From Bacillota bacterium (GTDB lineage Bacteria; Bacillota; Clostridia; Saccharofermentanales; Fastidiosipilaceae), in the NCBI GenBank assembly GCA_030057555.1, contig JASGUU010000064.1, positions 1 to 64,000 of the forward strand: 64,000 nucleotides of DNA, given 5' to 3'. This document shows positions 33,373 to 40,367 of the stretch, one piece after another; position 1 is the stretch's first letter, and each line of letters begins with the position of its first letter. Under the pieces are notes generated by a model. That model was not told the DNA's origin. It saw only the letters and a list, made by a program, of their open reading frames with translations, and did no database searches. The position numbers and the translations under genes were made by a program.

Positions 33373-35436
33373 TCAAGCGAACGGATAATCCGCATCCCGG
33401 TCGTGGTGCGTAAACGAGCTCTTTCCGGAGGCATAGGGGGCGACGGTCTGGCCGCTGCCGAGAACGAGGTAGCGGTAGCTGACGAGGCCCTCGAGCCCGA
33501 CGGGACCGCGGGCATGGAGACGGCCGGTGGCGATGCCGACCTCGGCCCCGAAGCCATAGCGGAAGCCGTCGCTGAAGCGGGTCGAGCAGTTCCAGAAAAC
33601 GTTGGCACCGTCAACCGCCGCCAGAAAACGCCTGGCCGCCTCCCTGTCCTCCGTCACGATGGCATCGGTGTGCCCCGAACCGTAGCGGTTGATATGGGCA
33701 ACGGCTGCGACGTCATCTGCCACCAGCGCCACGGAGATTTCGAGGTCGAGATACTCCTGATGCCAGTCCTCCACCTCCAGGCACAGCCCGGCGAGCCGTC
33801 CGCCCTCCCCGCCCGCCGCCGCGAGACGGCTGCGCAGCCCGGCGTCCGCATGCAGGCGCACGCCGGCGTCCGCGAGGGCCGTGAGCAGGCGGATGATCAG
33901 AGCATCGTCGAGACGGCTGTCGAGCAGCAGTGTCTCCGCCGCGTTGCAGACAGCCGTATACTGCGTCTTTGCATCGATGGCGATCGCAACCGCCATCTCG
34001 GGATCGGCTTCGCGGTCGATATAGAGGTGACAGACGCCGTCGGCGTGGCCCAGCACAGGGATCGCCGTCCGGCGCATGATCTGCTGGACAAAGGCATTTG
34101 AGCCCCGTGGGATGATGAGATCGACATCCTGATCGAGCTCGAGCAGCTCCGTGACCTGGCGGCGCTCCTCGAGCAGGGCGAGCCAGCCGTCCGGGAGCAG
34201 TCCCGCCGTCGCCCGGCAGATGAGATCGGCCAGCACACGGTTCGTCTCGCGGGCCTCGCTGCCGCCCTTCAGCAGGACGGCGTTGCCGCTTTTGAGGCAG
34301 AGCGTCGCAATCTGCACCAGTGCGTCGGGGCGCGCCTCGAAGATGACCCCGATCACCCCGAGCGGACAGGTGACGCGGTAGAGATCGAGACCGCGGTCGA
34401 GCTCGCGGGCGAGCTGGGTCCGGCCCAGAGGATCGGGCAGAGCCCGCAGGCTCTCGATGCCGGCACGGAGGCCGTCAATGCCTTTTGCGTCCAGACGCAG
34501 CCGCTTAAGCAGGGCCGGCGAGAGCCCCTCCGCCTCCGCACGGCGGCAGTCGGACTCGTTGGCTGCCACAATCCGCCCACGCTCCGCCTCGAGGGCAGCG
34601 GCGATGGCCGCGAGGGCTTCATCGCGGCGCTCGTTCGTGGTCGTCGCGAGGCCACGGGCTGCCACACGCGCCGCCCTCGCCAGCGCCGGTGTCGTCTTCG
34701 ACTCGTAGATGGCGCGCACCCGGGCCAGGGCCTCGTGGGTACCGATGTCATAGGCCTCGCCCTCGAAAAGATGCAGGCGCACGGGTTTTCGCTCATAGAG
34801 CCAGGAGGGGAAGTGACCGGGCGCATCGGGGTTGCCGCCGGCCGCGAGATAGTCGGCGAACAGCGGCAGGGTATCGCGGCGATAGAAGTAGGTCGCGTAG
34901 ACGCCGATGTTGGAGCGCGGCTTCTCGGGCTTCTCCTCGAGATGGAGAACCGTGCCATCGGGGGCGAGCACGGCGATGGCGAAGCGCCGTGGATCCTCCT
35001 CGGGCTCGAGTTCCTGGCCCAGAATCATGTCGCGGCCGTCCTCGAAGAAGGAGGCGGCGATGGGGGCGAGCGGATAGGTGAAGAGATTGTCACCGGCGAT
35101 TACGAGAAGATCGTCGTCGATGGCGAGGCTGCGGATCGCAAACTCGATGTCGCCGACGGCACCGAGCCGGTTCTCCGGCGTATCCGTTCCGTCGTCGAGC
35201 ACTGTGATCGGGACCCGGACCTGCGGGCCGCGACTGGCGGCCCAGTCATCGAAGGCCGCAGCGAAGCGGCTGTTCGTCACCACAATGATTTCGTCGACCG
35301 CCGCGATCGTCTCGATCTCGGCGACGATATGGTCGATGATCGGCCGGCCGCCGACCTCCAGCAGCGGTTTCGGCCGGTCGATCGTCAGGGGGTAGAGCCG
35401 CGTGGCATAGCCGGCGGCGAGAATGATCGCTTTCAT
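33373..35436 (-). CDS. Fusion: sugar nucleotidyltransferase + gamma-glutamyl phosphate reductase
   Basis: One 687-residue frame with two enzymes. Residues 1-235 are an NTP transferase of the glucose-1-phosphate thymidylyltransferase type (MKAIILAAGYATRLYPLT, RPKPLLEVGGRPI, LVIAGDNLF, DIGTHEAL). Residues 245-687 are ProA, the second enzyme of proline synthesis, with GVIGVIFEARPDALVQIA and the catalytic cysteine in QYTAVCNAAETLL. No stop, ATG or ribosome site lies at the junction near 34716. No proB is in the window. The start overlaps the rlmL-type stop by four bases. Confidence 0.9.
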   Translation of the reverse strand: MKAIILAAGYATRLYPLTIDRPKPLLEVGGRPIIDHIVAEIETIAAVDEIIVVTNSRFAAAFDDWAASRGPQVRVPITVLDDGTDTPENRLGAVGDIEFAIRSLAIDDDLLVIAGDNLFTYPLAPIAASFFEDGRDMILGQELEPEEDPRRFAIAVLAPDGTVLHLEEKPEKPRSNIGVYATYFYRRDTLPLFADYLAAGGNPDAPGHFPSWLYERKPVRLHLFEGEAYDIGTHEALARVRAIYESKTTPALARAARVAARGLATTTNERRDEALAAIAAALEAERGRIVAANESDCRRAEAEGLSPALLKRLRLDAKGIDGLRAGIESLRALPDPLGRTQLARELDRGLDLYRVTCPLGVIGVIFEARPDALVQIATLCLKSGNAVLLKGGSEARETNRVLADLICRATAGLLPDGWLALLEERRQVTELLELDQDVDLIIPRGSNAFVQQIMRRTAIPVLGHADGVCHLYIDREADPEMAVAIAIDAKTQYTAVCNAAETLLLDSRLDDALIIRLLTALADAGVRLHADAGLRSRLAAAGGEGGRLAGLCLEVEDWHQEYLDLEISVALVADDVAAVAHINRYGSGHTDAIVTEDREAARRFLAAVDGANVFWNCSTRFSDGFRYGFGAEVGIATGRLHARGPVGLEGLVSYRYLVLGSGQTVAPYASGKSSFTHHDRDADYPFA

Positions 35437-37345: not shown

Positions 37346-37888
37346 ATGGGGAAACAGGATGAAAATGCCTTATTCGCCTCTGGCGGAGCGCATGATCCGG
37401 CAGCCGGAAGAACGATAAGCAGCGCACTGCGACCGGTCAACGCGGCACAGAGACTCGGTCCCCTGCCCTTCGAAGTGATCGAACGCACCTATGGGGCCCG
37501 CATACTCGGAAAAGTGCTCCGGACGCTGCGCGAGGATCAGGGCTATTCCCGCCTCGATCTGGCGAACCATGTGGAAATGGATCCGAAATATCTCGCCCGG
37601 ATTGAGTACGGCAACTGCAGTGTCTCACTGCGCAAACTCGCTCCGCTCTGTTTTGCCCTCGGTTTCACGCTGTCGAAGATCTTCCACGTCCTCGAGACAA
37701 TCAACGAGACCGATGCTCCACACTGGTTCACCCCGCGCGCCGACACGGCCGGATCCCGCGATGGGGTGTCCGTCTATCATCTGCTCCGTGACGCTGCCGG
37801 CAACTATGAGAGCGCCGGGAATGCCTCTGCAGCAGAACTGGAAGAAACGGAAGAAACCGGGCCGGCCGCCGCAGGCGGCAGCGACTGA
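37346..37888 (+). CDS. XRE family helix-turn-helix regulator
   Basis: A 180-residue protein with a Cro/CI-type helix-turn-helix at residues ~52-110 (VLRTLREDQGYSRLDLANHV, EMDPKYLARIEYGNCSVSLR). Low-complexity arms lie on either side, and the C-terminus is rich in Ala and Glu. GAGGAG precedes the ATG by about seven bases. The stop is two bases before mutM, so the two form an operon. The target and signal are unknown. Confidence 0.8.
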   Translation: MGKQDENALFASGGAHDPAAGRTISSALRPVNAAQRLGPLPFEVIERTYGARILGKVLRTLREDQGYSRLDLANHVEMDPKYLARIEYGNCSVSLRKLAPLCFALGFTLSKIFHVLETINETDAPHWFTPRADTAGSRDGVSVYHLLRDAAGNYESAGNASAAELEETEETGPAAAGGSD

Positions 37889-37890
37889 GC

Positions 37891-39954
37891 ATGCCTGAAC
37901 TGCCTGAAGTCGAGCAGATGCGCCGCAGTCTGGCCCGCCGGCTCGAACATGCACACCTGCTTATGTTCATCAGCCTGCGGCCGGGCTTCCCCGACCTGAC
38001 GACCGTCGCTCTCGGCCTCGAGGCGATTCGTGATGCCGCCATCCGCCGTATTGACCGCCGCGGCAAATATCTCATCTGGCGTCTTGACAGCCCGGAGGGC
38101 AGCTTTGCCCTCGTCTGCCATCCGCGCATGACAGGGCACTTTCTCTGGCATGACGAAACCCAGCCTCTGCCGCCTCACATCCACGCCATGGTCCGCATTC
38201 TGGACAGCTCGGGAGAGCCCGGCCTCCTGCTCTGGCAGGATGTCCGCCGCTTCGGAACGCTGGAGCTGCTGCCCGCCGGCCGTCTCGAGACCGGTCCGCA
38301 TGCACTTCTGCGGCTGGGCCCTGAGGCCGACAGCTGGCGGCCCGATGCCGCAGCCCTCGTGCGCGCCGAACGCGGACGCAGGCGGAGTATCGCCGCCTGG
38401 CTTCTCGATCAGGAGAATGTCGCGGGCCTGGGGGCCATCTATGTCACCGAGGCCCTCCATGCCTGCGGCCTCGATCCGGCCACTCCCGCCAGCCGCCTGA
38501 GCCGCCCCGACTGGCAGCGCCTGTCCGCCGTGGTGCGGGATCTGCTGCGCTGGGCACAGGCCCGCGGCGGCTCCAGCATCAGCGATTATGTCGACAGCGA
38601 CGGCGGACGTGGCAGTTTCCAGCTGGAACACCGCATCTATGGCCGCTATCGCGAAGCCTGCCCCGACTGTGGTACAACGCTCGGCAGACGGGCTGTCGGG
38701 GGACGGCACATAGGCTACTGTCCGCGCTGTGTGCGCCTGCCCAGGTTCCGGCATCTGGCCAAACAGGATGACATCCGGCACAGAGGCAGGATAGAATCTG
38801 TGGAGAAGCCCGTTTGCGACAGCAGCAGTGAAAGGATCTCTCCCATGTCAGCACAGAACACATCGCGAATGCTCTATGTCGGCGGCTATGGAGGCCGCCG
38901 CATCGACCCCGCACCCGCCGGTCTGGTCACGGCTTCCCTGAGCGCCTGGTCCGTAACGGACACGGGCGAACTCACTCCTGTCCGTACCTTCGCCGGTGTC
39001 CGGGACTCCTCCTATGTCATCCCTGATCCGGCAGGTGATCTGCTCCTGGCCGTTCAGGAGAGCGGCCGCGGCGGCCGCTTCCTGATCGTCGACCCCCGGA
39101 GCGACTCGGACGACCCGCTGGCCGCAGTGAACATCGGCGCCGGTGGCCCCTGCCACCTCACCGTACATGGCAGCTGGGTCTTCACGGCCAATTACGGCTC
39201 CGGCTCGATCTCCTGCCTGCGCCTCGCGGACGACCATCGACAGGCGCGCCTCGTCGCCGTCATCCAGCACAGCGGCTCATCGGCCAATCCGGGCCGCCAG
39301 GAGGGCCCGCACACCCACTGGGTCGGCATCGACCCCGCCAGCTGTTATCTCTACGCCGTCGACCTGGGCATCGATGCCGTCCTGCGCTATCCCCTGAGCG
39401 CGCTGCTTGAGCGGCTTGAGACCCTGTCCGCAGCCGACGCGGCCGCGCCCACGCTGGACTTCGCTGAAGTCCGGCATGACAGAATCGTCTTCCCGGACGG
39501 CGAAGGCCCGCGGCACATGGTCTTCTCGCCCGACGGCCACTGCGGTTTTGTGGTGACGGAGCTCGGCAACCGCGTCTTCGCCCTTGACCTCACCGAGGCC
39601 CTGCCCGCCGTCCGGGATCTGGGGCTGGCCGGCGGCAGCGAGGGAGAAGCGAACTACCCCGCCGCCATCCGTCTGGCACCGGACGGGCGCCATCTGGCGA
39701 CCAGCATCCGCGGCAGCAACCGCATCGGCATCTTCGTCCTCGACGGTGCCACGGCGACGCGCATTCAGAATCTGCCCTGCGGCGGTGTCTGGCCGCGTGA
39801 CCTCTTCTACGCCGCCGACGGCCGGACGCTCTGGTGTGCGAACGAGCAGAGCCACGAGATTACCCGCTTCACAGTAGCCGCTGACGGCACGATCGCAGGC
39901 GGCGAATCAGTCGCCCGTGTCTCAGCTCCGGCCTGCCTGCTGGAAGTTCTCTGA
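37891..39954 (+). CDS. mutM: Composite MutM DNA glycosylase - lactonase-type beta-propeller
   Basis: Residues 1-285 are formamidopyrimidine-DNA glycosylase: N-terminal catalytic PELPEVEQMRRSL, RRGKYLIW, MTGHFL, and the zinc finger CPDCGTT..GYCPRCVR. It removes oxidised purines from DNA. Residues ~325-687 are a YbhE/Pgl-type seven-blade lactonase (GGPCHLTVHGSWVFTANYGS, RQEGPHTHWVGIDP, VDLGIDAVLRYP). The frame is open across a ~35-residue linker, but ATG 38845 (codon 319) has AAAGGA nine bases upstream and could start a separate lactonase. Fusion, dual product or loss of a stop are all possible. Confidence 0.88.
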   Translation: MPELPEVEQMRRSLARRLEHAHLLMFISLRPGFPDLTTVALGLEAIRDAAIRRIDRRGKYLIWRLDSPEGSFALVCHPRMTGHFLWHDETQPLPPHIHAMVRILDSSGEPGLLLWQDVRRFGTLELLPAGRLETGPHALLRLGPEADSWRPDAAALVRAERGRRRSIAAWLLDQENVAGLGAIYVTEALHACGLDPATPASRLSRPDWQRLSAVVRDLLRWAQARGGSSISDYVDSDGGRGSFQLEHRIYGRYREACPDCGTTLGRRAVGGRHIGYCPRCVRLPRFRHLAKQDDIRHRGRIESVEKPVCDSSSERISPMSAQNTSRMLYVGGYGGRRIDPAPAGLVTASLSAWSVTDTGELTPVRTFAGVRDSSYVIPDPAGDLLLAVQESGRGGRFLIVDPRSDSDDPLAAVNIGAGGPCHLTVHGSWVFTANYGSGSISCLRLADDHRQARLVAVIQHSGSSANPGRQEGPHTHWVGIDPASCYLYAVDLGIDAVLRYPLSALLERLETLSAADAAAPTLDFAEVRHDRIVFPDGEGPRHMVFSPDGHCGFVVTELGNRVFALDLTEALPAVRDLGLAGGSEGEANYPAAIRLAPDGRHLATSIRGSNRIGIFVLDGATATRIQNLPCGGVWPRDLFYAADGRTLWCANEQSHEITRFTVAADGTIAGGESVARVSAPACLLEVL

Positions 39955-39980: not shown

Positions 39981-40020
39981 GCCCCGTTTTCGACGCCCGC
40001 GCGGATGCGGGGCATTTTGT
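39981..40020 (+). terminator. Terminator after the mutM-lactonase gene
   Basis: Stem GCCCCG/CGGGGC with a 21-base loop, followed by ATTTTGT, 27 bases past the stop. Confidence 0.6.
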
Positions 40021-40145: not shown

Positions 40146-40367
40146 ATGGTTCAGGGTTTTGTTTCACGTTTCAATGGACGCAACGCTATCATCGAGGATA
40201 TCGAACGCAACCAGTTCAGTGTTGAGCGCATCAAACTGCCGCCCGATGTAAAGATCGGCGACTTCGTCGTCGAGAATCCCAAAAAGGGAACCTTCCATGT
40301 CGACGCCGAGATCACTGCGAAGCGCCAGCTCGAACTGCGCCGCATTGCCGATACGCACTTCGATTGA
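40146..40367 (+). CDS. DUF3006-like small protein
   Basis: A 73-residue protein (VSRFNGRNAIIEDIERNQFS, KLPPDVKIGDFVVEN) with the length and pattern of DUF3006: a beta-rich core followed by a proline-led stretch and a 'GD' turn. Function unknown. GAGGAGG lies ten bases before the ATG at 40146; a TTG at 40137 is an alternative that sits too close to the site. Confidence 0.65.
   Translation: MVQGFVSRFNGRNAIIEDIERNQFSVERIKLPPDVKIGDFVVENPKKGTFHVDAEITAKRQLELRRIADTHFD

Follow-up and report, generated by a model that had tools for sequence, protein, structure and literature searches.

In the window, the stretch of 64,000 nucleotides from a Bacillota bacterium (family Fastidiosipilaceae) that was analyzed, the gene for a MutM-like DNA glycosylase continues without a stop codon into a gene for a lactonase-type beta-propeller. 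The reading that we favor, with a probability of about two in three, is a stop-loss fusion behind mutM that contains a nested, independently expressed lactonase gene, so that two products would be made and the propeller would be a passenger on MutM. The frame is unbroken in two species, and the linker between the two parts carries promoter-like and ribosome-site sequences that are conserved between them.

A continuous MutM-lactonase frame in two species

The single open frame extends from 37891 to 39954 on the plus strand, comprises 687 codons for a protein of 687 aa, and ends with TGA at 39952-39954. It encodes, in this order, a MutM/Fpg part (37891-38736, residues 1-282), a linker of 36 codons (38737-38844), and a seven-bladed lactonase of the family PF10282, which, read from an internal ATG, represents a gene for 369 aa (38845-39954). 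Pfam profiles match the 687-aa product at residues 1-123 (Fapy_DNA_glyco, 7e-19), 142-232 (H2TH, 6e-17), and 349-683 (Lactonase, 5e-62). The nearest solved structures by sequence are MutM 1l1t for the N-terminal half (9e-41, residues 1-282) and the Pgl-like propeller 3scy for the C-terminal half (8e-27). Since the 1l1t alignment spans residues 1-282, the natural end of MutM should lie near codon 282, which leaves codons 283-318 as the linker. The predicted structure of the fusion, calculated from an input of two sequences, was poor, with a mean pLDDT of 45.8.

The same unbroken frame is present in a second species (L031 1981-4041, genome G001, Bacillota bacterium isolate MAG87_KBP), with 686 codons and 82% identity. 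The alignment of the two contains one gap of a single codon, which is outside the linker, and the linker has no stop in either species. The genus is represented by these two genomes, which were assembled separately, and the fusion is found in both. Thus, the continuity from the zinc finger into the propeller that the earlier note had described is confirmed, and a stop codon near 38780, which it had named as the observation that would speak against a fusion, is contradicted by the second assembly.

The gene for a small helix-turn-helix protein (37346-37888, plus strand, PF13560 1.5e-8) is located directly upstream of mutM; its stop lies two bases ahead of the mutM ATG in the window, and in the second species the two genes overlap. 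The C-terminal end of this gene is variable, with an array of 12-base repeats at L031 1861-1936 and indels relative to about 37816-37880 of the window. Both ends of the L031 contig (1-381 and 5083-5540) carry tandem arrays of 60- and 121-base repeats with related units, which the window does not contain. The lactonase is followed by a terminator-like hairpin (39996-40011, plus strand) with a counterpart at L031 4065-4101; three such hairpins were found versus a mean of 2.3-2.4 in shuffled sequences, so this is weak evidence taken alone. A small gene for 73 aa is encoded further downstream on the plus strand (40146-40367).

A full-length match to the fusion was found in none of the 56 other relatives (58 genomes were searched, including the two of the genus) and, among the matches listed, in none of the 397 other genomes of a phylum sample of 398 that included the window's own; these matches extend to about E 4e-37, and a more weakly matching fusion could be missed. 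Relatives of the lactonase are present in 11 of 188 genomes of the order, and the nine outside the genus are encoded in frames of 339-437 codons, which are too short for a fusion with MutM. A search of genome contigs retrieved two loci: L031, the only fusion, and L032, in which the match is confined to residues 1-327. Viral contigs gave no match, and none of the 184 plasmid records with one or the other domain covered 80% of the query. Unfused MutM proteins end shortly after the zinc finger: all 37 distinct ends read have a stop 2-34 residues past the last zinc cysteine. No publication on a MutM-lactonase fusion was among the papers listed in literature searches, some of which were judged by title and the opening of the abstract.

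The linker resembles promoter and leader DNA

The linker contains a sigma-70-like promoter, ATGACA-18-TAGAAT, at 38768-38797 on the plus strand, and the evidence for a promoter is this match to 10 of 12 consensus positions. The site was detected independently in each of the two species, with identical hexamers and spacing. Sites of that score occur seven times on the plus strand of the 64 kb, which corresponds to 0.012 expected per 108 bases. It is followed by a Shine-Dalgarno-like AAAGGA (38831-38836, plus strand), which is conserved in the second species. The earlier note had already recognized this motif ahead of the ATG at 38845; the spacing is eight bases rather than the nine that it gave. 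The calculated ribosome-site energy is -9.4 at this ATG and -5.8 at the mutM start, and an equally strong site is found at 20 of 375 internal in-frame ATG or GTG codons of genes in the window, 38845 included.

Four runs of identical bases between the two species (38763-38780, 38786-38798, 38818-38836, and 38842-38851, with 18, 13, 19, and 10 bases) span the -35 and -10 hexamers, the ribosome site, and the start codon. The two hexamers and AAAGGA, 18 bases in total, are free of the 21 linker substitutions (chance 0.014). The comparison of the two species also revealed that the linker does not have the excess of third-position changes: substitutions at codon positions 1/2/3 number 5/8/8 in the linker, 37/33/106 in MutM, and 39/41/117 in the lactonase. 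The third-position share of 0.38 is lower than in any of 579 other windows of 36 codons (minimum 0.41), and a Fisher test of this contrast for the 36 codons was borderline (p 0.06-0.07). Omega is 0.52 in the linker, above all 98 blocks outside it (maximum 0.49). Because of the conserved runs, the substitution-free hexamers and AAAGGA, the low third-position share, and the rarity of the promoter site, we interpret the linker as DNA of a promoter and a leader that is translated incidentally. With promoter-like sequence, ribosome site, and in-frame start all conserved, the lactonase has the predicted features of a nested gene with an internal promoter.

Both other reading frames run into stops within the linker, as was seen in a check on frameshifting out of the MutM frame, and a terminator-like site was found on the coding strand of the linker in neither species. 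Without a mutM stop and without such a terminator-like site, MutM that is translated must be fused to the lactonase unless it is cleaved. The options in the earlier note, namely that the gene yields the fusion, the lactonase on its own, or the two together, were the right ones; the conserved ribosome site and the sigma-70-like site in the linker, the latter of which the note did not mention, favor the last of these, and the cell probably makes the fused protein as well as a separate lactonase. A stop arose in 35-55% of neutral simulations carrying 21 linker substitutions, so that a stop-free linker is unsurprising at such a divergence, and selection for an open linker is not demonstrable from two genomes with these simulations.

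The MutM part

PF01149 and PF06831 match above their cut-offs, and the four zinc cysteines are present at positions 257, 260, 277, and 280; PF06827 fell short of E 0.001 on this part. P2, E3, and K59 are invariant in both species; we take the N-terminal Pro and Glu to be the catalytic residues of MutM/Fpg and the Lys to be an active-site residue. One exception was found: the Asn of the GNIY motif, which is Asn173 in G. stearothermophilus and Asn168 in E. coli, is replaced by Ala182 in both species (codon 182, 38434-38436 in the window). Of 37 distinct motif strings, all the others (36) retain it; the strings were collected with a pattern that leaves the Asn position free, and only loci that fit this pattern are counted. 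This Asn is not an absolute requirement for membership in MutM. The protein stays narrowly under two NCBIfam equivalog cut-offs (205.1 bits for a cut-off of 212, and 199.7 bits for one of 203.3), and we file it by its domains as MutM-like. In comparison with MutM/Fpg (TIGR00577, PF01149 plus PF06831), it shares the full-length domain order, the PELPE start, Lys59, the zinc-finger cysteines, and the RMTG and DVRRFG motifs, but it differs in the fusion without a stop after the zinc finger, in the Ala, and in the slightly sub-threshold NCBIfam scores.

The window is not the only place where an unrelated enzyme is attached to the C-terminus of MutM. Three other Bacillota genomes encode fusions of MutM with the dephospho-CoA kinase CoaE (L084 351-1895, L085 342-1880, and L088 349-2058). 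In these, too, an unrelated metabolic enzyme is fused behind the zinc finger of MutM, but the partner is a dephospho-CoA kinase instead of a lactonase.

The lactonase part and the pentose phosphate pathway

The C-terminal part matches PF10282 with 210.5 bits (cut-off 21.7) over profile positions 14-342 of 344, and its structural relatives by sequence are 3scy, 3fgb, 4qrj, 6igb, 3hfq, 6nau, and 1ri6. This nearly full-length match is shared with YbhE/Pgl-like lactonases, in contrast to which the propeller of the window is joined to MutM and scores far under the equivalog cut-offs for 6-phosphogluconolactonase (49.2 of 370 bits for NF008258 and 87 of 500 bits for NF050136).

The genome of the window contains zwf and gnd on one contig, and its sole PF01182 protein scores as NagB, not as Pgl. 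Therefore, by sequence, the fused lactonase is the only candidate for a 6-phosphogluconolactonase found in this genome. In the family, the lactonase is present in four of 12 genomes, all of which have zwf, and zwf is present in six of the 12. Two genomes (G002 and G004) have zwf alongside only NagB-like PF01182 proteins, which means that zwf does not require the lactonase. In L039 (2485-7144), a putative gene for 227 aa lies between zwf and gnd, and no PF01182 match was found there. The presence of zwf and gnd and of a lone Pgl candidate is in favor of a pentose phosphate role of the lactonase taken alone, and none of it links repair to NADPH. Such a link between oxidative DNA repair and NADPH supply, which the earlier note had put forward as sensible, has found no support: the lactonase misses the Pgl cut-offs by far, in the sister genus zwf occurs together with a lactonase that is not linked to mutM, and the promoter-like site of the lactonase itself argues for separate expression.

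Gene order and origin of the fusion

The sister genus (L061 from G008 and L062 from G011) shares with the window the order UPRT, ProA, nucleotidyltransferase, RlmL, HTH, and MutM. There mutM stops 5-7 residues beyond the last zinc cysteine, without a lactonase, and is followed by a gene for 74 aa (L061 8747-8971 and L062 9019-9243) that is 44-45% identical to the 73-aa gene of the window. The lactonases of the sister genus are encoded on other contigs and are 36-37% identical to that of the window. From this adjacency of mutM and the small gene, with the lactonases elsewhere, it is most likely that in the lineage of the window a lactonase gene was inserted between the two and the mutM stop was lost. 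A single sister genus suggests this polarity; downstream of mutM in genome G006, which is less closely related, there are other genes.

At a distance of 2.5 kb, the minus strand of the window (33373-35436) encodes another fusion specific to the genus, of a sugar-nucleotidyltransferase (residues 1-245) with a full ProA (249-665) that scores above its equivalog cut-offs. The two are also fused in L063 (1626-3689, 88%), and in L061 and L062 they are separate adjacent genes.

The course of events may be pictured as follows. In an ancestor of the genus, a lactonase gene that brought along its promoter and ribosome site would have come to adjoin mutM, ahead of the small gene, and mutM would have lost its stop codon. 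Because the frames of mutM and lactonase agree, the former promoter and leader would now be translated as a linker. Transcripts from upstream would be translated into a fusion of MutM and lactonase with a mass of about 75 kDa, which would be the sole form of MutM unless it is cut. The promoter at 38768-38797 together with the ATG at 38845 would give rise to the lactonase alone, with a mass of about 40 kDa, and this product is probably more abundant. The propeller would most likely be a tolerated passenger on MutM, with each half keeping its usual work.

Alternative explanations

Both halves of the frame are under purifying selection, with an omega of 0.18 for MutM and 0.19 for the lactonase, which indicates that both are used. 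This constraint and the retention of the fusion in both species at a dS of 0.57-0.71 would also fit a true bifunctional or coupled enzyme, in which selection acts on the fusion and the propeller tethers, regulates, or localizes MutM or ties repair to the flux through the pentose phosphate pathway. The presence of zwf, gnd, and a single 6-phosphogluconolactonase candidate, and the CoaE fusions, which indicate that MutM tolerates C-terminal partners, point in the same direction. We nevertheless regard such an enzyme as unlikely: the constraint on the linker is DNA-like rather than protein-like, the lactonase alone has conserved promoter-like and ribosome sites, staying free of stops at this divergence needs no selection, and no such fusion was found elsewhere among the relatives, the genome contigs, the order, or the phylum matches listed. 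A special form of it, in which a tether of MutM and propeller kept by selection is the only MutM of the genus and the internal promoter sets the ratio of free lactonase to fusion, appears quite improbable. If it were true, the lactonase or its ligand would tune 8-oxoG repair, perhaps with the Ala at the lesion-eversion position.

Proteolysis in the linker could also free MutM, so that the working MutM and lactonase would be separate proteins. The linker is polar, has the length of an exposed linker, and is of low confidence in the poor structure model, and the 37 unfused MutM ends read all lie 2-34 residues past the last Cys; yet no cleavage motif was recognized in the linker and nothing in the data demands cleavage, which makes this very unlikely. 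It is highly improbable that MutM is being lost, i.e., weakly made and without its lesion-eversion Asn, the frame mattering mainly as a lactonase gene. The exchange of this Asn in both species and the scores just under the two cut-offs agree with a loss, as does a study of E. coli Asn168 mutants, which supports a role of the residue in eversion of the oxoG lesion and found N168D to be most detrimental (PMC4737139). However, the mutants described there carry Asp and Gln, not Ala (PMC4737139), and the low omega across MutM together with the invariant P2, E3, K59, and zinc cysteines argues against decay. The removal of a stop codon by a sequencing or assembly error might be considered for a genome assembled in 90 contigs, but it is ruled out for practical purposes by the same frame in the separate assembly of a species with 82% identity, and its probability is close to negligible.

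Implications

On the favored reading of a fusion with a nested lactonase gene, the genes are arranged in an uncommon way, and there is so far no indication that the fusion has a new function. This reading predicts that MutM exists in this genus only as a fusion, and annotation will list as one bifunctional enzyme what are likely to be two products. The case would show that the first step toward a gene fusion in bacteria can leave the second gene undisturbed, its promoter and ribosome site simply being translated into a linker.
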